A stretch of 23,244 nucleotides of DNA from a virus (IMGVR_UViG_3300020475_000550:1-23244), one strand, 5' to 3'. Shown: positions 1-23,112, numbered from the stretch's first letter. Numbers and translations: made by a program. The notes: a model not told the origin generated them from the sequence alone.

Positions 1-3000
1 CAATTAACTAAATTAAAATTAATTCCTGATTGGCGACAAGTTGGAAGAATGACACAACACATGGGGTTGTTGCGTAATTTAGGATACAGGTTTGGAATTG
101 CTCAACTAGATTTATTTTTCCAAAAATTTTGGCGACCTAAAGTATTGTTAAAACTTGGTGTAGCTCCAAGAAACTTTTTTGACGAAGCATTACAAATGGG
201 ATTACGTCATGGGTTTGGCGCGCAAGTTGATACTCGTTTAGCAATTACTGCGGCGGGAAGAATTTCTCAACGAGATGAATACGGCAGAATATTTGGAGCG
301 CAAGTTGGTGATGTTGCTTGGACTAAAGAACAAATAATTAAAGGTGACAGACAAGCTTTATTAAGACAATTAGCTGGTGTTCAACCAGTGGCTCAATCAA
401 ATATTGCGTTACTTAAATTCCCTGCCATTGTTTCAAGAAAATTTTTAGATGTTATGCAAATGGGTAATAAAGCCATTCATAAAAAAGCTGAAAAAGCTGC
501 TATCGCTAGAGAAGGTGGACGTTGGGATAAATTACCAAGTGAAGAAAAAGATGCGATTGTTCGTAATGAAATGATAAAACTTTATCAAGAAGAATCTGGG
601 TTTGTTTCAGAAGCAGCTATGCATACACAATTTGTTTTAGAATGGAAGCTTCAAGAGATGTTACCTAACGCTCATTTAACAAGTAAATTGTCACCATTTG
701 ATCCTGCTATTTCTGACAAAATTGCTGTAGCTAATAAAATATTAGAAATGCGTGGCGTGTCTGGAGCTAAACAAAGAGAAGGTGTATACCACGCTTTAAA
801 CAATCCTGTAGTAATGGAAGCTGTTACAGAAAGTTTAATGCGCCCTCTAGCGCCTTACATGGATGACGCTAAAGGAACTGATTTAGTAGTAAGACATGGT
901 GGCGATACTCATAATCGAAACATTATGTATCGACTAGAAATGGATCCTTCAAGAATAGAAACCAAATTTTATACTGAAACTAGAAACAGTAGAGAAAGAG
1001 TTGAAGGCGCTTTACAGCAAATGAATTGGATGAAAGATGAACCTGCTGCTGTAGAAATGGGAGTTGAACTTGCTCATCATATAGATGAACCTATGAATCT
1101 GTTCTTTAGAGATATTGTTCCTCCGGGTTATCAAGCTCCTTGGAGGAAAACTGGTAAACCTGCTTTGCCTCAAGGTACTGGAATGCCTCCTCATGTTCCA
1201 GATATAGATATTAAAAATGTAGATACTGGAGTAGGGTCTTCGATTCATCGAGCTACTGACTCGCTTAAAAATGTTGAAGGTAAATTAGAAATTCATTTAG
1301 ACTTTGGTGTTCTTGCTAAACAGTATAAAGCTATTTTATTTAATCACAAAAACATAACAAAAGGACCTAATGCTGTTGCTTTAAAAACTCTTGGTTATAA
1401 TCCTTCTACATTTGTTAAAGGTTTATCAGAGCTTAATTTAACCGCAGGTCATTCAAGTGTTCCTGAAACTTTTTTAAATGCTTTAAATGTTGAACGCGCA
1501 AAAATGGGTATGGCTCCAAAAAAAGCAGGAGATGTATTAGAAGAAGCTGAACCTTTTTATTTGTATTCTTTTGAACGTCAGTTAGCTGCTGTTCGTTTAC
1601 AACATTATGATGATGCTGTTTCAGCTTCTGATTTAGTAAAAGCTAATCAAATTGCTTTGCAACAATTAGGTGTTGGTGAATCAGCAGCTCTTTCAAGTAA
1701 AGTTCCTCTTGCTCATCCTGTTACTAGAATTATTTCTGGCGGTCAATCTGGTGCTGATATAGCTGGTGTTCGTGCGGGTCGTGCGCTTCAAATTGAAACT
1801 GGTGGAGTAGCTCCTGTAGGAAAAACCGGCAAACTTTCTTCTAGTAAAGAAAAAACAAAATACGGAAAATTAGTTACTGATGAAGAAATGAGAGATCTTG
1901 GTATAACAGAAGTTGAAGGACCTATACCAGAAGACGGTGGTAATTGGGGCGAATATTATATGAGGCGGACTAAAGCTAATATAGATGCGTCTGATGGTAC
2001 TGTTATTTTCACTCAACCAAATTTGCCTAAAACAATTAAAGGTAGAGGAGTTTCAGGTACAGAAAGAACAATTAAATATGCTACAGATAAAGCTGATTAT
2101 CCAGATCCTTTAATATTTAATGCAGAAAAATTTACTGATAAAGATAAAACAAGACTTTTAAAATGGTTAAAACGAAATAATATTCAAACACTTAATGTTG
2201 CTGGTCCTAGACAACATGTAGTTGAAATGAAATGGCAAACAAACAAAAAGAACTCTGTTGTTCTTAGTGGTAAATTTGGCAAAGGTAATATATTTAAAGC
2301 AGCAGCAGGAAGTAAATCTAAAACTCTTTTTGAAGCAGTAGTTAAAGGTGAGCGTAATGCTTTAATAGCTCCTAAATCTACTGAGGTAAGATCTGACACA
2401 GTAAGAGGCATGGAACGAGATCCTGAACTAGCAAAAGGTGTTAGTCCACTTATAGAAAAAGGTTATAAAAGTGGAGAAGCAAAGATATTACCGATTGATT
2501 TAAATCCGGGTCTTTTAGAACGGTTTGGCGAAGGTGAGTTGCTAACTATAACAAGTGGTAAAGAAAAAGTTTTAGTTCGTGTTATTAGTAAAAAACCTTC
2601 TGATGAATACAAAAGTAGAGAGTTAGCTAAAAAGCTTGGTTATGAATATGATACAAGAACACAAAATTGGGACGAGCTTGCAGTTAGCCATACTGTAATT
2701 GAGTTTGAAGTAGTAGCAGAAGATCTTCTTAAAACTGCTCCAGATTTTGAATCTTCAGTTCAAAAGTTTTTAACTGACTCTTTGTCTGGTGGTGCTAGAA
2801 CTTATGTACCTCCTGCTCCTACTGCAAGTGGAATTGATTTACAAAAGAATCTTGAAGCAATAGAAGAATTAGGTGGGCAATTAGATTATTACCCACAATC
2901 AATACAAGGAATTACGTTAGATGATGTAGATAATGTTGTTGAATGGCAATCACCGTTTGGTGCAAGTAAACCTGAAGTAACTGTTTTAGGTGAAGTAGGA

Positions 3001-6000
3001 ACAGATTATTATTACACGTATCATCATTATCATATTGTTGATGAAGGTAAACCAGTTGGTACTGTTCTTCGCTCAAAAGGAAATGGTACAAAAGGAAGCA
3101 CTAAACATGTATACGTTCAGGGCGGTTGGGATCCTGTTATTCAAGATGTTAAAAATCAAGTAGAAGCTATAACTGGTTACGAATTTGATACAGTTATTGT
3201 TCAAAAATATGCAAGAGGTAATGTTGATTTAGGTTTTCATTACGATAAAGAAACAGGAACTTGGCCTGCGCAACCTGAAGCAATTATTGCTTCTGTAAAC
3301 CTTGGTGCTACAAGAGATTTTGTTTTCAGACCACGAACTTATATAGATAAAACTGGTAAACGAGTAGAGTATTCGCGTCAAGCATGGAACAAAACATCTA
3401 GAAAAGAAGAACATGTACCGTTTGAATTAAACGATAAAGATGTTTTCTTAATGCGTGAAGGCACACAAGATGCTTGGGAACATAGTTTAATGCGACGTAA
3501 AGGAAATGTTGGTCCACGTATTAATCTAACATTCAGGCGACGTAATCCTGCTATTCAGAAAAAAAGTCGCGGCGACGCAGCAGTTCCATTTAGAGGTGAA
3601 GACGTTGCATCTTCAGGATTTACTCCAGCCCCTCCAAAACCACCAGCATTTGCTCCTGCTTCACCGCCACCACCTGAAGATCCTTCATCACAATTTGCAC
3701 GAGCTGCATATGACAAAGTAACAGAAATGGGAGTTCGTTCTCATTTACGAGAATTTTATGAAAACGTACATACTTTTGAACAAGGCACAATGCGTGATGA
3801 AGTTAATTTACTTATTAAAAATATTAAAAAAACAGTAGGTATAACACCTTCTGAAGAAAAATTTATTAGAGGATTGTTAACTCCTTCAGATAAAAATGTT
3901 GGTTACGTTCACAGTAATGCTTTAGCTTGGCTTGTTAATTACAGAGTTAATCCTGAAGCTTTAGTCGGCGGCAGAGATTTACAACCTATTGTTTCTCGGC
4001 AAGTTGATAGAGGAGTAAAAGAGTTTACAACTATCTCTGGGCAAGACAGATTAAGATCTTTAAAAGCACATGGCGGTCATCAAGGAGTTATGCTTCCTGT
4101 TCCTCCTGATCGAGTAGAAATCTTTTTGCCTCAAATTAATGGTGATGCTGCATTGCATCTTGGGTATTTATTTGAAGCAGCTCGTGGTCCTATGACTATT
4201 GAATTAAGAAACGCTCTTAAAGGATTTCTTGTTAAAGAATTAGGAACTGACAAATTAGCTATAGATGCTTTAAATATGTTGAACCCTATGAATAATCCTT
4301 ATGGTTCAACTTTGCCTAGTGCTTGGTTAGAAAGAAACGTACCTAAAGGCGGAAGTTTTCTTGGACAATTAATAAGTAATAATCCTTCAAATGGTTCTCC
4401 GGGAACTTTTGTACCTTTAGGTAGACATACAGGTGTTCAACAACAGACTGTAATTGGTTTAACAGGATCTCATAATAGTGAACATGCTCAAGCTATTAGT
4501 AGAGCAGTAGAAAAATGGAATGAATGGATCTATCAAAGCGGTGGACAAATCGGATCACAAATGCTTGATGATGCTTTGAACCCAATGGGACCATTTAAAT
4601 CTTTGCCTTCTGTTAGACGACTTTATTCTAAAGGTGAGTATCAAGCAGATATAGGTTTTGGTAGACAATTTGGTTCTTCTCAAGGTATAAATCTTCCGCG
4701 AGGTGGGTATGGTCAAGATGTTTCTAGACCACCTTCTGTCTATATTGCAGGTGAAGGTTGGGCTGATAAAAAGAGTGTTCCTTTAGGTTGGGTTGAAGAA
4801 CGAGCTGATGGTGTACCAACTGGTAAATGGATTCCAGATGAGACTCCAATGCCTAGCGAATTTGAACCAACTGGTATTATTGGATTAGAAACTGAACTTG
4901 AAGCACGTAATATACGTTTTCCTACTACACCACAATCCCCTGAAAAACTTGCTACTACTCTTGATAGACGAGAGTATCTTGAAGAAGAAATTATAAATCT
5001 TGCACATTCACTACTTTCTTTACCAAGTGGATCAAAAGTAACTTATCCGTTTTCTGCAACAGCTTCGTATCAAAGATGGAAAGGCGATTTACCATACTAT
5101 GACGATTTTGGATTTACTTTAAATAGATTAATAAAAATTGTTAACGATCATGGTGCGTCTTCTACTTCTACTATTGCAGATTTAGAACGAGAAATATGGC
5201 AAATACTTGGAGATCTTCCAACAGTATCAAAAGGAATAGCAGACTTGCCGTATATAGGTACTGTAGGTGGGGTAAAACATGATGGTGTTCGTAGAATATT
5301 TACTGATTTTGAACCTACAGATCTTGTTCCTAATTTAGAAATAAAAGGAAACCCTGTAGGTGATATAACACAATTTGATTCTGATATTTTAAAACCGTGG
5401 AACATGAGTTATGAAGAAGTTCAATGGATGCACGATGATCCTTCTCTTATAGTAGGTGACACTATAGAACAATTAGCGCAAAGAGACATAGGTTTTGAAC
5501 AAGATGTCTTCTGGAATTACGCGCGACCTGACGAACAATTTTTCCCTGCTGCTGGTTTATCTACAGCAAAACCGGGTGATGTTATACCTCCTCGTGGTGT
5601 TATTGGACGTAAAAAAACTCCTGAAACTCATGACGCTTTATTCCAAGCTGGTGTTAAAGACGTTGAAGAATACATGATAAATAGAATTAGCGGAATGCCT
5701 GAAGAAAAACTTGCAGCATTTTTAAAATGGAGACAACAACAAATAGATGAAGCAATACAAGCAGGACATGTTGATGCTGTGTGGCCTTTCTTTCGTAATC
5801 CTTCTAGCGCTACTTTTGATTATGATGGAGCAGCTAAAACAATTTTAAGAAATCCTGATCCGCAAGATTATCCTGTTTCGTTTAAAGAAACTGCTAAAGA
5901 ACTTAAAGCTAAAAACATTCCAATCGATGAAACCGCCCAACAAAATATGCCTACGAGAACAGCAGCAATAGTTAAAAGTAAATTAAGAACAATAGCTGAA

Positions 6001-9000
6001 TCAGATACACCTAGAGCATTATGGACGTACGATAGTGAAAGAGCAGCATCTTTAAGACCAAGTGATATAGGTGGTTTTCATCATGGCATAGATCTTGTAG
6101 GTGTAAATCCTAAGAGTGTTGGACCAAATGATATTGAAACTGTAATGGATTCACATAATGTGTTTCATGTTTGGGAACATACAAAAACAAAAGATATACA
6201 CATTCTTCCTGATACTGCTTATAATCCTACTACTAAAGAATTAAATATACCTGTCGGTTTTAATCCAAAAGATTATAAATCAATAGGTTCGTTTGAAGCT
6301 GGTTCTAACGATATGGCTCAATTTACTAGAGTCCAAACTGAAAAAATAAAAAATGAAATGAATCATCTTTTAACTACACATGACAGAGTAGAAGCATCTG
6401 GAGGCGCACAAGTTAATCATCCTATGTTGCTTGAGTTAACTGGTTTTCCAAAAGATGCAGCTATGTCAGAAGCGCGATTAGTTACACATAGTAATGATGG
6501 ATTGTTGCCTCAAAGAATGTTGCATACAATGCCAGCGGGCGCTCCTAAAACTGGAGCGGGTGGAGCAGTTATGTCTGGTATTAAACATTTAGAAAGAGCT
6601 TTCTTTGGTGGTTACATGCATCCTGTTATTAAAGCAGGTATCCGTGAACCTATGTTCTTGTGGTATTTTTCTGAAACTTGGGCTACTAAATCTTTAGGTA
6701 TAACTGAATTTTATCAACACAGCGCTAATGCGTTTAAATTTTTAGAAACAACATTGTTAAAAGAAGTACCTAATTGGTTGCTGCCTAGCAGACTATCGCC
6801 ACATCATAAAGCTATGCATAACGGAGTAGAACAATTTGATATTCCTGAGTTAAGAACCTTTATTGAAACTTTCCGTAATAGAAGAAAAGCTGAAGATGTT
6901 ACTGCTGTTTTTGCTGACGTAGTAGATGATTGGATGTCAGGAGTTAAAGACAAAAATCTTTTGTTAGAACAAGTATTTGATCTTCCTAAAGGTGAAGTGC
7001 GTATTGGAAATGATTATGGATTGCCCGGAGGTGGGAATCTTAAAGGTACGCATAGTTTAAGTAAAGCATATGGAAATAATCCTGATGAAGCTTTACGTGA
7101 TGCTTTAGCAAATAGAAATTATTATGATGTTGAAATTAATTTTAAAGACAAAGGATTATTCCACAGAGTATTTGCAGGTAACGAAGAACAGTTCTTTCAT
7201 CTAAAAGAAACATTACCAACAGACGAATACAATTTATTTATACGCAGCATAATGGAATGGATGTCGCAACAACTTGCTTCACATCATGCAAGAGTTGATT
7301 TTGCAATGCTTGATTCTGCTAAACGAATGAGTCATTACGTTGACATGCACACAAAACGATCATTCTTTCAAGAGATGGTTGGATCAGCAATACCATTTCA
7401 TTTTGCTCATTTCCAATTCTTATCAAGATGGGCAAAAACAATAGAGCATAATCCAGCAGCTATACCAAGATTAAATTGGTTATTGTTTGCTGCTGTACAA
7501 ACAGGTTACAGATATGAAGATGAACGAACAGGACAGATGAGACTTAAAATACCTTTCACTGAAACAGGTGTAGGTATTTTCTTAGAAGTAATGAATAGTA
7601 TTCCTATAGTTCAAAAATTCTTTGGTAGTAAATTATTAAGCGTCTTTGAAGATGGTGTAGGGTTCCCTGAAAGATTTATTTTGCCGGGATACGATCCAGA
7701 TAATTTACTTGAATTTCAACTTGGTCCAATACTAGGAATCCCTTTAACAGCAGCATCTCATGTAATTGGTCCACAACTGCTTAATGAAGGTTTACTTGGT
7801 GTAGGTGAAAATCTTGTAATGAATAGAACTTACGATGAGCCTTTAGTTAATTCAATTTTTGGTCAGCTATTACCTACAACATTTGTTCGACCATTTGCTG
7901 CTGTTCTTAATGCTTTTGGTGGTTCTGATATAGCTGGACTTTATTCTAAAGCTGAAGCTGACGCAGTTATGATCTTAGGATTAAAAGGAATGTTACCTGA
8001 CCAAGCTGACATGGCTGGCAGGCCGGGTGAAGAAGTTTTCAATCAGAATTGGTATGAAGCTATTTCTCATATAGCTAAAGTAAAAATGGTTATGGATATG
8101 GTGACATGGCAAATAGTTGGTACGTCATCACGTTCAACAATATTGTCATCTGATGCAGCTTGGGAATGGAATGAGTTAATGCAACGAGGTATTGATATGG
8201 GTATGCCTCATGAAGAAGCTTTTGAATACATGTTGGATCAAGCTAAAGAAGACTTTGATGCTAATTTTGCTATAGAGTATCCAAATATTTCTACAGATGA
8301 TTCTTTTTATTGGGATGAATGGAATAGAGAAATAACTAGAATAGGTACTACTGGCGTAGGCGCAACAGAGAAAATAACAATAGCTGATTTGCCTATGACT
8401 GTGGCAGCTTGGGAATGGTTGACAACAGGAGACAATCAAGAATGGGTATTAGCTGCACCTTTAGTTCATTCATTCTTTATTCCAAGAGGATTTACTGAAG
8501 AAGAAACATTGTATGCACAGTTTGCAAGAGATTGGCAATTAGGTGAAGCGTTACGTTGGGATCGTACAACTGAAGAAATACAAATTGCTATTCAAAGTGT
8601 TGCTCCTTCTGTTGAATATTATCAAACAAAAGAAGCTCATTTAAGACAATTAAATATATTCAGAGAAGCTAGAGACAGTGGTCGTAGAAACGATATAAAA
8701 CCGGGTGTGTCATGGGCTGATATGATTATGATGGAAGAAGAAAGCTGGGATTCATACGATGCAACGTTTAAAGAACGGTATCCTATATGGGCAGAAAATA
8801 CGTTCGGTTTAGATTCTCAACATAAACGTAAAGAAACGCTTGATGAAATGCGTCGTTTGTTTACATCAGATAATATTGATGCAATTCCTGACAGCCCACA
8901 TAAAACCGATATTCTTTCAGGTATGAAATTAATTATTAATTTAGATAACGCTTTAATACAATTATCTGGTGTAAGAGGTAGTAATGACAAAGGTGTTAAA

Positions 9001-9171
9001 TGGACATCTATTCGTAATAATCTTATACTTGATACATACAACGAATTTAGTGCTTTAGTTGCGGGTAGACCGTGGCTTAACACAATGTTTTATAACTTGC
9101 TTTTGCCTTTCATTGGTGAAGATTGGGTAATAAAGTTAGAAGAAGGCACATTAGATTTAGGAGTTAATTAA
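1..9171 (+). CDS. Giant polyvalent virion-type protein with SLOG, ASCH-like and AlkB domains (5' partial)
   Basis: The frame is open from base 1 with no stop, so the true start lies off the left edge; the ATG at 49 is only the first internal Met. At least 3056 codons are present (residues here count from base 1). Residues about 575-760 match the circularly permuted YpsA/SLOG family, often mislabelled molybdenum carrier: GGQSGAD 580-586, RRTKAN 655-660, DGT 665-667, SGTERT 685-690, LNVAGPR 731-737. Residues about 775-905 look PUA/ASCH-like. Residues about 960-1182 are an AlkB-type dioxygenase: H1080, D1082, H1161 and R1173-x-N-x-T-x-R1179. A proline-rich linker lies at 1207-1230. The rest is unassigned. 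The segment near 2460-2490 (PFHFAHFQFLSRWAKT) resembles the C-terminal part of large ejected phage proteins. Enzymatic domains joined to a large virion-like scaffold fit the 'polyvalent protein' concept. Packaging and ejection into the host are inferred from the neighbours, not shown. Confidence 0.85.
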   Translation, partial: QLTKLKLIPDWRQVGRMTQHMGLLRNLGYRFGIAQLDLFFQKFWRPKVLLKLGVAPRNFFDEALQMGLRHGFGAQVDTRLAITAAGRISQRDEYGRIFGAQVGDVAWTKEQIIKGDRQALLRQLAGVQPVAQSNIALLKFPAIVSRKFLDVMQMGNKAIHKKAEKAAIAREGGRWDKLPSEEKDAIVRNEMIKLYQEESGFVSEAAMHTQFVLEWKLQEMLPNAHLTSKLSPFDPAISDKIAVANKILEMRGVSGAKQREGVYHALNNPVVMEAVTESLMRPLAPYMDDAKGTDLVVRHGGDTHNRNIMYRLEMDPSRIETKFYTETRNSRERVEGALQQMNWMKDEPAAVEMGVELAHHIDEPMNLFFRDIVPPGYQAPWRKTGKPALPQGTGMPPHVPDIDIKNVDTGVGSSIHRATDSLKNVEGKLEIHLDFGVLAKQYKAILFNHKNITKGPNAVALKTLGYNPSTFVKGLSELNLTAGHSSVPETFLNALNVERAKMGMAPKKAGDVLEEAEPFYLYSFERQLAAVRLQHYDDAVSASDLVKANQIALQQLGVGESAALSSKVPLAHPVTRIISGGQSGADIAGVRAGRALQIETGGVAPVGKTGKLSSSKEKTKYGKLVTDEEMRDLGITEVEGPIPEDGGNWGEYYMRRTKANIDASDGTVIFTQPNLPKTIKGRGVSGTERTIKYATDKADYPDPLIFNAEKFTDKDKTRLLKWLKRNNIQTLNVAGPRQHVVEMKWQTNKKNSVVLSGKFGKGNIFKAAAGSKSKTLFEAVVKGERNALIAPKSTEVRSDTVRGMERDPELAKGVSPLIEKGYKSGEAKILPIDLNPGLLERFGEGELLTITSGKEKVLVRVISKKPSDEYKSRELAKKLGYEYDTRTQNWDELAVSHTVIEFEVVAEDLLKTAPDFESSVQKFLTDSLSGGARTYVPPAPTASGIDLQKNLEAIEELGGQLDYYPQSIQGITLDDVDNVVEWQSPFGASKPEVTVLGEVGTDYYYTYHHYHIVDEGKPVGTVLRSKGNGTKGSTKHVYVQGGWDPVIQDVKNQVEAITGYEFDTVIVQKYARGNVDLGFHYDKETGTWPAQPEAIIASVNLGATRDFVFRPRTYIDKTGKRVEYSRQAWNKTSRKEEHVPFELNDKDVFLMREGTQDAWEHSLMRRKGNVGPRINLTFRRRNPAIQKKSRGDAAVPFRGEDVASSGFTPAPPKPPAFAPASPPPPEDPSSQFARAAYDKVTEMGVRSHLREFYENVHTFEQGTMRDEVNLLIKNIKKTVGITPSEEKFIRGLLTPSDKNVGYVHSNALAWLVNYRVNPEALVGGRDLQPIVSRQVDRGVKEFTTISGQDRLRSLKAHGGHQGVMLPVPPDRVEIFLPQINGDAALHLGYLFEAARGPMTIELRNALKGFLVKELGTDKLAIDALNMLNPMNNPYGSTLPSAWLERNVPKGGSFLGQLISNNPSNGSPGTFVPLGRHTGVQQQTVIGLTGSHNSEHAQAISRAVEKWNEWIYQSGGQIGSQMLDDALNPMGPFKSLPSVRRLYSKGEYQADIGFGRQFGSSQGINLPRGGYGQDVSRPPSVYIAGEGWADKKSVPLGWVEERADGVPTGKWIPDETPMPSEFEPTGIIGLETELEARNIRFPTTPQSPEKLATTLDRREYLEEEIINLAHSLLSLPSGSKVTYPFSATASYQRWKGDLPYYDDFGFTLNRLIKIVNDHGASSTSTIADLEREIWQILGDLPTVSKGIADLPYIGTVGGVKHDGVRRIFTDFEPTDLVPNLEIKGNPVGDITQFDSDILKPWNMSYEEVQWMHDDPSLIVGDTIEQLAQRDIGFEQDVFWNYARPDEQFFPAAGLSTAKPGDVIPPRGVIGRKKTPETHDALFQAGVKDVEEYMINRISGMPEEKLAAFLKWRQQQIDEAIQAGHVDAVWPFFRNPSSATFDYDGAAKTILRNPDPQDYPVSFKETAKELKAKNIPIDETAQQNMPTRTAAIVKSKLRTIAESDTPRALWTYDSERAASLRPSDIGGFHHGIDLVGVNPKSVGPNDIETVMDSHNVFHVWEHTKTKDIHILPDTAYNPTTKELNIPVGFNPKDYKSIGSFEAGSNDMAQFTRVQTEKIKNEMNHLLTTHDRVEASGGAQVNHPMLLELTGFPKDAAMSEARLVTHSNDGLLPQRMLHTMPAGAPKTGAGGAVMSGIKHLERAFFGGYMHPVIKAGIREPMFLWYFSETWATKSLGITEFYQHSANAFKFLETTLLKEVPNWLLPSRLSPHHKAMHNGVEQFDIPELRTFIETFRNRRKAEDVTAVFADVVDDWMSGVKDKNLLLEQVFDLPKGEVRIGNDYGLPGGGNLKGTHSLSKAYGNNPDEALRDALANRNYYDVEINFKDKGLFHRVFAGNEEQFFHLKETLPTDEYNLFIRSIMEWMSQQLASHHARVDFAMLDSAKRMSHYVDMHTKRSFFQEMVGSAIPFHFAHFQFLSRWAKTIEHNPAAIPRLNWLLFAAVQTGYRYEDERTGQMRLKIPFTETGVGIFLEVMNSIPIVQKFFGSKLLSVFEDGVGFPERFILPGYDPDNLLEFQLGPILGIPLTAASHVIGPQLLNEGLLGVGENLVMNRTYDEPLVNSIFGQLLPTTFVRPFAAVLNAFGGSDIAGLYSKAEADAVMILGLKGMLPDQADMAGRPGEEVFNQNWYEAISHIAKVKMVMDMVTWQIVGTSSRSTILSSDAAWEWNELMQRGIDMGMPHEEAFEYMLDQAKEDFDANFAIEYPNISTDDSFYWDEWNREITRIGTTGVGATEKITIADLPMTVAAWEWLTTGDNQEWVLAAPLVHSFFIPRGFTEEETLYAQFARDWQLGEALRWDRTTEEIQIAIQSVAPSVEYYQTKEAHLRQLNIFREARDSGRRNDIKPGVSWADMIMMEEESWDSYDATFKERYPIWAENTFGLDSQHKRKETLDEMRRLFTSDNIDAIPDSPHKTDILSGMKLIINLDNALIQLSGVRGSNDKGVKWTSIRNNLILDTYNEFSALVAGRPWLNTMFYNLLLPFIGEDWVIKLEEGTLDLGVN

Positions 9172-14830: not shown

Positions 14831-14914
14831 ATGCCAAAATATGCAACTAGCTCTTCCAAAGGGAAAGCTAAGAAAGTACCATATAAGAAAGTAAGGAAAG
14901 GTAAACGTAAATAA
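14831..14914 (+). CDS. 27-residue lysine/arginine-rich peptide
   Basis: This is a short ORF between the 472-aa virion protein and the holin. It is preceded by a good Shine-Dalgarno (AGGAGA at 14821-14826, five bases from the ATG) and ends in TAATG, sharing one base with the holin start. Twelve of 27 residues are Lys or Arg, there is no acidic residue, and the N-terminal third is Ser/Thr-rich. Such composition suits a nucleic-acid-binding or DNA-condensing packaged peptide, or a small lysis regulator; neither is shown. The strong ribosome site, tight spacing and full use of the gap between two genes support real translation. It may partly serve to couple translation into the holin gene. Confidence 0.6.
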   Translation: MPKYATSSSKGKAKKVPYKKVRKGKRK

Positions 14915-15102
14915 TGTTTAACAAAGACGTACTAGAGAGAGTGGTTGCCACATTCGCGCAATCATTTCTTGCTGTGTTTACTATTGGTGACATGGGAAGT
15001 ATGAAAGCTGCTGGGATTGCAGGCGGTACTGCTGTACTTAGCCTTGTTAAAAGTGTGGTTGCATCACGCTTTGGTGACGGATCAGCTTCAGCGGCAAGCT
15101 AA
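14914..15102 (+). CDS. r1t-like holin, 62 aa
   Basis: The protein has two short hydrophobic segments, residues about 9-26 (RVVATFAQSFLAVF) and 31-50 (KAAGIAGGTAVLSLVKS), joined by a short charged turn. The order 'ER..ATFAQ..LA' then 'A...A..AVLSL.KS..' is characteristic of the phage r1t holin family seen in phages of Gram-positive bacteria, especially actinophages. A holin accumulates in the cytoplasmic membrane and opens it at a set time so that endolysin reaches the wall. The gene overlaps the upstream stop by one base and the downstream start by one base (TAATG on both sides), with AAGGAAAGG upstream. The endolysin candidate lies about 7 kb downstream rather than next door. Confidence 0.72.
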   Translation: MFNKDVLERVVATFAQSFLAVFTIGDMGSMKAAGIAGGTAVLSLVKSVVASRFGDGSASAAS

Positions 15103-16945: not shown

Positions 16946-17308
16946 ATGCCTACATATGTTTACGAGTGTTCGGAGTGCTACTCTCATTGGGAGTTAGTAC
17001 AAAGCATGAAGGACAAACCTAATAGGTTTTGTTCTGAATGTGGCAAGGAATCCGGTAAACGGATTCTTCAGTCACCAGCTTTAACGGCTGATGCTACTCC
17101 AAACAGGGGAAGAAATAAGATCCCTCCTCGAAGACCAAATAATAATTGGGAAAGAGGAAAAGCTGGTCAACATAGAGCAGATGGGTCATTTGTTCCATAT
17201 GTTAAGTCAAATGGTGACAATATACCTGTTAAAGAATTTGCTGATAATCGCTCAAAGTATGAAGGACTGTTGCGAGAAAGAAAAAACAGACAATCCACTA
17301 CTAAATAA
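16946..17308 (+). CDS. FmdB-type zinc ribbon protein, 120 aa
   Basis: Residues 1-40 are a classic FmdB-family zinc ribbon. The protein starts MPTYVYEC, with cysteine pairs C8-x2-C11 and C29-x2-C32 around the ELVQSM segment, which would bind one Zn. The remaining 80 residues are basic and probably disordered (Arg-, Asn- and Pro-rich, e.g. KIPPRRPNNNWERGK), with a charged C-terminal helix. FmdB domains are small regulatory or nucleic-acid-binding modules in bacteria; the role in a phage is not established to my knowledge. Placement between scaffold and major capsid protein suggests an assembly factor, a minor capsid component or a transcriptional/translational modulator. It starts right after the scaffold stop with only a weak ribosome site. 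Confidence 0.82.
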   Translation: MPTYVYECSECYSHWELVQSMKDKPNRFCSECGKESGKRILQSPALTADATPNRGRNKIPPRRPNNNWERGKAGQHRADGSFVPYVKSNGDNIPVKEFADNRSKYEGLLRERKNRQSTTK

Positions 17309-21429: not shown

Positions 21430-22400
21430 GGTTTTATCCTTCGTATACTTTTGAGACTCCTGCTGCACCTCAGCAACGTATAGGTAATGGTGCTATGACC
21501 CAATGGAAATCAAGTAGTCCTAATTCTGCTTCAATTAAAATAGGTTCATCTAATACTTTAACTGGAAATTATTCTTATGTTGGTTTTGATACAGGTCATA
21601 GTGAACAAGATTATTTAGGATACATGGTTGGTACGAGTGGGACCACTTCTGGTTCAGGTGATTGGGGTGGCGTGATAATGCGTCCACCTGTAATGACTAA
21701 TGATAATTATCGTCCCTTTATGAATATGGTTGAATATGGTTCAGGAGATGCTGGACGTTCTTACGCGGCGGTAGGTATTTACGATCAAGGTGTTGATAAT
21801 GGAGATCAAAATACAACCACTTGGTATCGTTTTTCTAGTGGGACGTATGCTCAAACCAATTATGGTGATGTTTGGTACTGGTATGACAACCCAACTACAG
21901 GTACTTCATGGACTACCTTAATGTCACTTAATGCTTCAGGTAATCTAGCTGTTGCAGGTTCATTGTCTAAAGGATCCGGGTCATTCGACATACCTCACCC
22001 AGTATTAGAAGACAAAAGATTACGTCACTCATTTATAGAGGGACCGTATGCTGATCTAATATACAGAGGCACTGTGACACTCGGAGCAGAACCAGTAACT
22101 ATTTGTATGGATGAACAATACAGTATGACTGAAGGTACATGGAAAGCATTAAACACTAACCCTTGGTCTATCGTTTCAGCATCAGGCAAGCTGGTTGAAT
22201 GGTCGTTAGATGAATGCAAACTGACTATCACTGGGGATGAAGGAACAGTTTGTCAATGGATGGTGATAGGTGAACGTAAAGATCAGCATATGATTGACAC
22301 TGATATTAGTGACAATGATGGTAGAATTGTATTAGAGTATACTCCGACGGCTGAACCAGAGGACATACATGACCAACCCCCTACTCCCGACTACAGATAA
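21426..22400 (+). CDS. Tail fibre / receptor-binding protein, 324 aa
   Basis: The first 180 residues are Gly-, Ser-, Thr-, Tyr- and Asn-rich beta sequence without cysteine. Residues about 185-215 hold the motif GSFDIPHPVLEDKRLRHSF followed by IEGPYADLIYRGTVTL. This closely matches the 'FxIDHP ... LxHxFvE(g/s)P ... IYxG' domain seen at the C-terminal end of many phage fibre and baseplate proteins. It probably forms a trimeric fibre or spike touching the host surface. The start codon overlaps the nozzle stop (ATGA), and the stop lies 32 bases inside the endolysin gene, so the two are tightly coupled. The receptor cannot be read from the sequence. Confidence 0.75.
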   Translation: MRFYPSYTFETPAAPQQRIGNGAMTQWKSSSPNSASIKIGSSNTLTGNYSYVGFDTGHSEQDYLGYMVGTSGTTSGSGDWGGVIMRPPVMTNDNYRPFMNMVEYGSGDAGRSYAAVGIYDQGVDNGDQNTTTWYRFSSGTYAQTNYGDVWYWYDNPTTGTSWTTLMSLNASGNLAVAGSLSKGSGSFDIPHPVLEDKRLRHSFIEGPYADLIYRGTVTLGAEPVTICMDEQYSMTEGTWKALNTNPWSIVSASGKLVEWSLDECKLTITGDEGTVCQWMVIGERKDQHMIDTDISDNDGRIVLEYTPTAEPEDIHDQPPTPDYR

Positions 22401-23112
22401 GCATATAGATTTAAGTTTACTTCATCCTAGATTTGTAGAACGATTAGAAGATTTCTTTGCTGACGGGCGCATAGGTAACAGGGTAAGTATATGCTCAGGG
22501 TGCAGATCATACGCTGCTCAGAAGGCCCTCTACGACCGTTACAAGAGAGGTAAAGGTAACCTTGCAGCTAATCCTGATTGGAAAAGACCCGATGGTTTCT
22601 TTCGAGGCAGCTTTCATCAAGAACAACCAGACGGATATTCTTATGCAGTTGACCTACGTATAGTTAAACGAGGTTTAACAACAGATGAAGTAACCAGTGT
22701 CGCTCACAGGTACGGTATACGACCCACAGTCAGAGGAGAATGGTGGCATTTTCAACCACGTAACGGCAACAGTTGGTTTAAAAGAGTAGGATCAGTGTTC
22801 CTTGGCAGACCAGAAGAACCACCTGAACCAGAGGTTAACTGGGCTGGCATTCAAGCAATCATAGATGACATGGGTAGACAGATAGCAAACGCTCCAATTA
22901 GAAGAGGATCTAAAGGAGCAATCGTAAAGGTTGCACAATCGAAGCTCAACTCGTTAGACTTTAATTGCGGAATAGCAGATGGGGTATATGGACGCAAAAC
23001 TTTAAAAGCTGTGTTGATGTTACAACGTACAATGCTACTGAAAGAAAGTGGGAGTATGGATTATAAAACATGGAATGCGATGTGGAATCCTGAGGTGCCT
23101 ATTGGCCTCTAA
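22369..23112 (+). CDS. Endolysin: M15 (VanY-like) peptidase plus peptidoglycan-binding domain, 247 aa
   Basis: Residues about 10-135 are an M15-type D,D/L,D-carboxypeptidase or endopeptidase, with CRSYAAQKALYDRY, then H83 and D95 (SFH ... YAVDLR), and E124-W-W-H127-F. H83, D95 and H127 are the expected Zn ligands and E124 the catalytic base. The H-to-D spacing is longer than the classic SxHxxGxAxD by an inserted EQPDGYS, seen in some phage lysins. A linker (PEEPPEPE) leads to a peptidoglycan-binding repeat at about 183-245 (RRGSKGAIVKVAQSKLN, GVYGRKTLKAVLMLQ, MDYKTWNAMW). It cuts the peptide cross-links of the wall at lysis. AGAGGA-type sequence (AGAGGA at 22358-22363) just before the ATG supports this start inside the fibre gene. 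Confidence 0.88.
   Translation: MTNPLLPTTDKHIDLSLLHPRFVERLEDFFADGRIGNRVSICSGCRSYAAQKALYDRYKRGKGNLAANPDWKRPDGFFRGSFHQEQPDGYSYAVDLRIVKRGLTTDEVTSVAHRYGIRPTVRGEWWHFQPRNGNSWFKRVGSVFLGRPEEPPEPEVNWAGIQAIIDDMGRQIANAPIRRGSKGAIVKVAQSKLNSLDFNCGIADGVYGRKTLKAVLMLQRTMLLKESGSMDYKTWNAMWNPEVPIGL

Follow-up and report, generated by a model that had tools for sequence, protein, structure and literature searches.

The viral sequence IMGVR_UViG_3300020475_000550, a 23,244-base IMG/VR entry analysed at its full length (the window), starts inside the gene for a giant protein, which harbours an AlkB-like 2-oxoglutarate (2OG)-Fe(II) dioxygenase domain. The contig L002, which is 99.99% identical to the window over 13.5 kb, carries this gene in full and encodes a whole protein of 4,216 residues (P0002); the ATG at position 49 of the window is internal to the gene. 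Residue numbers such as H1080 are counted here from base 1 of the frame that is open at the window's 5' end, and P0002 numbers refer to the giant protein. The coordinates of all features are collected in Table 1.

A preliminary description of this DNA, made from the sequence alone, had proposed that an AlkB-like domain at 2881-3543 is fused into the giant protein. This was borne out by matches in the same frame to PF13532 (E-value 6.1e-21; 75.9 bits against a curated cut-off of 31.2), to the PHROG family ‘alkylated DNA repair’ (E-value 2e-10) and to human ALKBH2, the nearest solved sequence (E-value 2e-15), all of them so far above chance that a fortuitous occurrence of the AlkB motif was ruled out. 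The location stood, and the limits moved slightly outwards (to roughly 2857-3549), the domain including an N-terminal ‘GGxLxYxP’ segment and the nucleotide-recognition lid. The structural comparison that the same description had suggested was then made with an AlphaFold model of window positions 2839-3558 (42 aligned sequences; mean predicted local distance difference test score (pLDDT) 89.1, predicted TM-score 0.87). The model contains the double-stranded beta-helix fold, and Foldseek ranked ALKBH2 first (best E-value 3e-14), followed by ALKBH3 and E. coli AlkB (E-value 1e-8), with a TM-score of 0.75 by target length against 3bty. Since the alignment behind the model held AlkB homologues, the fold is not independent of sequence kinship. 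Taken together, these matches and the model indicate that the domain almost certainly adopts an AlkB fold.

To survey its active site, we aligned 96 AlkB sequences, five of them from giant phage proteins and 91 from elsewhere. The catalytic H, D, H, R, N, T and R are present in all 96, and H1080, D1082, H1161, R1173, N1175, T1177 and R1179 each occupy the place first given for them in the frame 1-9171. Loss of the His/Asp/His triad in close relatives, which had been named as grounds for rejecting the assignment, was not seen: the triad is kept in the related giant genes. Thus, the claim of an intact active site holds for the metal triad and the RxNxTxR motif, but it had overlooked two departures. 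The first lies two residues before a conserved Tyr, at the place of an Asn that contacts 2OG in E. coli AlkB: each of the five giant-protein AlkBs has Gln here, and 90 of the 91 others have Asn. The second lies in the lid, where the Arg of a Pro-Arg pair is found in 91/91 non-giant AlkBs. The pair reads Pro-Glu in the window and Pro-Asp in the related contigs L003 and L006, and is retained as Pro-Arg in the contig L118; the aromatic lid residue is present (Y1003). In addition, AlkBs of the window group have about 30 additional residues after the lid that are without counterpart in cellular AlkBs. Asn-x-Tyr and the lid Pro-Arg are common rather than family-defining features, and as judged from the alignment we take the changes to mark a variant, not to exclude the domain from the family.

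When the AlkB of the window phage was compared with those of three other lineages, the ratio of nonsynonymous to synonymous substitution rates (dN/dS) was 0.26-0.38, which shows purifying selection on the domain; among the close cassettes of L003, L004 and L006 it was higher (0.59-0.69), with few changes. Because the Gln and all ligands are conserved and the dN/dS is 0.26-0.38, an active but altered enzyme is favoured, and we consider it probable that the domain is catalytic. The Asn-to-Gln change and the divergent lid make ordinary 1-methyladenine/3-methylcytosine repair specificity less certain.

A scan of genomes that used close AlkB relatives gave no match; for a broader AlkB alignment, 566 matching stretches were found and 80 kept. 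Most of the homologues recovered were stand-alone bacterial AlkB genes. In a tree, the AlkBs of giant proteins group together and apart from both stand-alone phage and bacterial AlkBs, with moderate support and long branches. A single capture followed by movement is the simplest reading of this ancestry, with independent captures a possible alternative. One AlkB labelled ‘Acinetobacter phage MD-2021a’ (L026, CAKLQH020000005.1) was set aside as bacterial chromosome-like, as its ada-alkB genes lie beside pgsA, an IclR regulator gene and aaeB.

The preliminary description had rightly placed AlkB in the giant polypeptide but overlooked its membership of an exchanged multi-domain cassette. In the window group this cassette runs in the order cpYpsA/SLOG, ASCH-like, AlkB and a variable slot, which according to lineage is empty or occupied by DUF7831 or a NADAR-like domain. 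The SLOG domain scores 61.4 bits with PF12694 (cut-off 26.2), has a homologue in L118 (E-value 1e-25) and matches PDB 3imk weakly (E-value 0.0055). The ASCH-like domain adjoins AlkB in every lineage covering the region and is also homologous, less strongly than to the L004 insert described below, to the domain that precedes AlkB in L118 and L117. In L004, a second ASCH-like domain (L004:10439-10795) is inserted inside AlkB itself, between HxD and the second His; this insert is closer to a short ASCH protein than shuffled controls are, and its match to PF04266 (E-value 0.003; 18.6 bits) falls under the cut-off of 21.2.

The variable slot is empty in L002 as well as in the window, and is occupied by DUF7831 (PF25176) in L003 (L003:10613-11080; E-value 1e-30) and L004 (E-value 2e-29). 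NADAR-like domains, with the pattern LSN...F.FRGK.F...E.AYQA.K, are found at L006:10736-11185 and L118:7648-8190; their matches to PF08719 (NADAR; E-values 0.009 and 0.03, respectively) are under the cut-off, and the site in L006 is also matched by TIGR02464 (E-value 0.006) and PF08010 (E-value 0.09). Both assignments were checked by Pfam, NCBIfam, six-frame search, PDB profile search and hhalign with shuffled controls, the six-frame search giving no match to either ASCH (PF04266) or NADAR. Because both fall under curated cut-offs, the two names are tentative and are used here as ‘-like’. An AlphaFold model of SLOG, ASCH-like and AlkB domains together, built from four sequences, reached a pLDDT of 33 and was set aside.

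Comparison of lineages pointed to the mobility of this cassette. At 4-fold-degenerate sites, L003 and L006 differ at 13% of positions in P0002 1573-2345 and at 41% in the remainder of the gene (Fisher p 5e-20), and L004 and L006 at 6% in the cassette and 38% outside it (Fisher p 1e-29); on the right, the block ends together with AlkB. These synonymous differences are most plainly read as exchange of the cassette between lineages by recombination. Constraint on synonymous sites alone would not account for the drop being largest between particular pairs. Separately, a further segment, in the middle scaffold block, appears recombined (P0002 ~2866-3000; window ~5116-5520), L004 and L006 being 88-96% alike there, well above their level on either side, and L003 and L004 divergent.

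A second phage group, made up of L118/G001 (protein P0007, 4,365 residues) and L117/G002, has the same scaffold blocks as the window, with 25-29% identity and E-values down to 1e-109. Its cassette, ordered ASCH-like, AlkB, SLOG, NADAR-like (L117 ends within SLOG), sits between the middle and C-terminal blocks, whereas that of the window group sits between the N-terminal and middle blocks. Among annotated phages, the N- and C-terminal parts of the giant protein have no close homologue, and only ct2KA10 (OX376640.1) was found as a distant relative, with a portal, a 1,764-residue scaffold protein and a homologue of the window's 472-residue gene product. The 1,764-residue protein has part of the C-terminal block in common with P0007 (22.6%; E-value 1e-13) and gave no AlkB or SLOG match. 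Since a scaffold without the cassette exists in ct2KA10, the cassette behaves as separable cargo.

Table 1 Features of the giant gene (window coordinates unless a contig is named).
Feature	Position	Strand	Basis or remark
3' portion of giant protein gene	1-9171	+	Frame open at 5' end; last 3,056 codons
Full-length giant gene	L002:3596-16246		
End of conserved N-terminal scaffold block (P0002 up to ~1347)	1-561	+	Block map against P0007
Cassette, exchanged (P0002 ~1573-2345)	1237-3555	+	Low inter-lineage synonymous divergence relative to rest of gene
cpYpsA-type SLOG domain	1702-2214	+	PF12694 match at 1729-2214, E-value 1e-16
ASCH-like domain (tentative)	2269-2712	+	hhalign to L004 insert, E-value 1e-6, prob 90
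Proline-rich linker YVPPAPT ahead of AlkB	2803-2823	+	
AlkB-like 2OG-Fe(II) dioxygenase domain	2857-3549	+	PF13532, PHROG and ALKBH2/3 matches; predicted fold
Nucleotide-recognition-lid region	2971-3111	+	Lid Arg replaced by Glu (E992); ~30 added residues
Q1068-K-Y1070, site of 2OG-binding Asn-x-Tyr motif	3202-3210	+	Asn replaced by Gln
H1080-x-D1082 metal ligands	3238-3246	+	H1080, 3238-3240; D1082, 3244-3246
H1161 metal ligand	3481-3483	+	
R1173-x-N-x-T-x-R1179 motif (N1175, T1177)	3517-3537	+	R1173, 3517-3519; R1179, 3535-3537
Variable slot after AlkB, empty here	3550-3615	+	DUF7831 in L003/L004; NADAR-like in L006
Proline-rich linker past AlkB	3616-3684	+	
Scaffold middle block (P0002 2468-3233)	3922-6219	+	Block map against P0007
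Scaffold C-terminal block (P0002 3310-4210)	6448-9150	+	Common to L118 group, whose form has a weak ct2KA10 match

The giant gene lies inside a packaging and structural cluster. Genes are ordered terminase (phrog_38), portal (phrog_104), a gene for a 153-residue protein, the giant gene, genes for proteins of 609, 431, 369 and 472 residues, holin and, further on, major head protein and endolysin; the two genes at its start were assigned upstream of the giant gene in L002/L134 (terminase, E-value 1e-47; portal, E-value 9e-8), and the L118 group shares the beginning of this order. Just ahead of the major head protein gene, a small gene (16946-17308) has a weak FmdB-like/zinc-ribbon match. The endolysin gene (phrog_2649; 22369-23112) lies beyond the head genes and a long way from the holin gene (14914-15102).

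Phage polyvalent proteins have been defined by multi-domain architecture and virion-gene context (PMC5512222, Iyer et al. 2017). In the giant protein, unrelated enzymatic domains are joined in one polypeptide, with the cpYpsA SLOG and AlkB domains above their cut-offs and DUF7831 in relatives, and its gene stands beside virion genes with portal-terminase packaging. The explanation we find best, which we hold at about even strength, is that a giant virion protein of polyvalent type carries movable nucleic-acid and nucleotide enzymes, of which AlkB acts on bases after entry. A giant, probably virion-associated protein would serve as carrier of the movable domain cassette, would be packaged and would then enter the cell with the phage DNA, whereupon the ALKBH2/3-like domain would oxidatively remove alkyl or other modifications from nucleic-acid bases. 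Of these steps, presence of the protein in the virion is likely and its delivery to the cell stands in the balance. The preliminary interpretation, in which an ejected AlkB would act on the incoming genome or on host-imposed marks, is partly supported. A connection of SLOG and NADAR domains with NAD-derived signals and with ADP-ribosylated bases has been described (PMC9503650, PMC11125620). Given its exchange and variation between lineages and its SLOG and NADAR-like associations, the cassette may counter host-imposed marks or effectors rather than serve fixed housekeeping repair; taken overall, counter-defence in place of repair is a tentative reading, a little short of even. Exchange and relocation of the AlkB block fit an interchangeable set of tools that would reverse chemical marks or damage soon after infection begins. 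A more specific version, which we think less likely than not as a whole, is that the particle brings modular ‘mark erasers’ on one ejected giant: an AlkB of altered specificity for a host-imposed base mark, with SLOG, ASCH-like and NADAR-like domains processing modified bases, ADP-ribosylated nucleic acid or NAD-derived signals, the set being reshuffled in response to host defences.

Several observations weigh against the explanation in terms of a delivered polyvalent protein. Packaging and ejection are inferred, few lineages are known, and genes of virion clusters are made late, so that late intracellular use is possible. Pfam searches recovered no known virion-protein domain or large polyvalent-protein domain (LPD) in the scaffold, and no HExxH protease motif was found in the giant protein. 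A motif in the C-terminal block (‘AIPFxFA..QFL.RW’) had prompted the idea of kinship with LPD38; the LPD38 search did not support it, finding no LPD38 in the scaffold, and the same search matched no control either. The NADAR and ASCH matches, as noted, exceed shuffles and miss thresholds. Furthermore, Gln in place of Asn and, in the window group, loss of the lid Arg may lower or alter activity on standard substrates.

Among the alternatives, plain DNA repair survives best, and we judge it unlikely without being negligible: AlkB would clear 1-methyladenine/3-methylcytosine-type damage from phage DNA, whether incoming or replicating, and have no anti-defence role. Its nearest solved relatives, ALKBH2 and ALKBH3, are DNA repair enzymes, and stand-alone bacterial genes form the majority of homologues; yet the 2OG and lid residues have diverged, the adjoining domains are not alkylation repair enzymes and, instead of being fixed, the cassette is swapped and varies. 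AlkB-like 2OG-Fe(II) dioxygenases occur in a small number of jumbo phages, for which mark resetting has been suggested, and such sporadic phage AlkBs have been argued to resemble mark-resetting more than repair (PMC7824862). An RNA-directed function, in which AlkB and the ASCH-like domain would act on host or phage RNA (e.g. tRNA), reversing or adding modifications to sustain translation after RNA-targeting defence, would suit the constant adjacency of the two domains, the insertion in L004 with its resemblance to a short ASCH protein beyond shuffled controls, and the reported activity of NADAR enzymes on ADP-ribosylated RNA (PMC11833690), but the ASCH assignment is weak and RNA binding conjectural, and we regard this function as improbable. 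Most doubtful is a non-catalytic binder or an enzyme of drifted specificity, its AlkB fold retained for nucleic-acid binding in the virion, as the Gln at a position where 90 of 91 others have Asn, the lost lid Arg and the very long branch might suggest, against which stand the low dN/dS and the invariance, in the five giant-protein sequences, of the metal triad and the two motif arginines.

If the giant protein is packaged and its AlkB domain active, a base-modification eraser would be delivered at DNA entry, ahead of any phage gene expression, and oxidative demethylation would join the activities known in polyvalent proteins, giving a testable substrate question. The natural variants (the exchanged cassette; a slot filled by DUF7831, by a NADAR-like domain or not at all; a related scaffold free of the cassette) offer ready comparisons, and DUF7831 acquires a functional context.

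In open-access main texts, we came across no prior account of AlkB in a giant virion-type protein, and a description elsewhere is possible; PMC5512222, on polyvalent proteins, makes no mention in its main text of AlkB, dioxygenase, NADAR, SLOG or ASCH. The giant protein is like the polyvalent proteins described there in being very large, in combining unrelated enzymatic domains, in lying beside virion genes in a portal-terminase phage and in its variable architecture; it differs in that neither a known LPD nor a processing protease could be recognised in it and in that injection is inferred. With ALKBH2 and ALKBH3, the window domain shares the fold, the HxD...H...RxNxTxR signature and the aromatic lid residue, and it departs from them in being embedded in a giant phage protein, in having Gln for Asn, Glu or Asp in the lid and about 30 extra residues and, in L004, in carrying an ASCH-like insert in the catalytic domain. 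Viral NAD/ADP-ribose systems, for which a role against host nucleotide signals and against ADP-ribosylation has been proposed, likewise bring together a YpsA-like SLOG domain and a NADAR-like domain in phages; they are described without AlkB or ASCH, unlike the cassette of the giant protein (PMC9503650). Finally, stand-alone phage AlkBs (PMC7824862; L108-L116) are also AlkB-family oxygenases of phages, but these are separate genes encoding about 200 residues, in which both the Asn and the lid Arg are of the usual kind, and they group, with moderate support, apart from the AlkBs of giant proteins.

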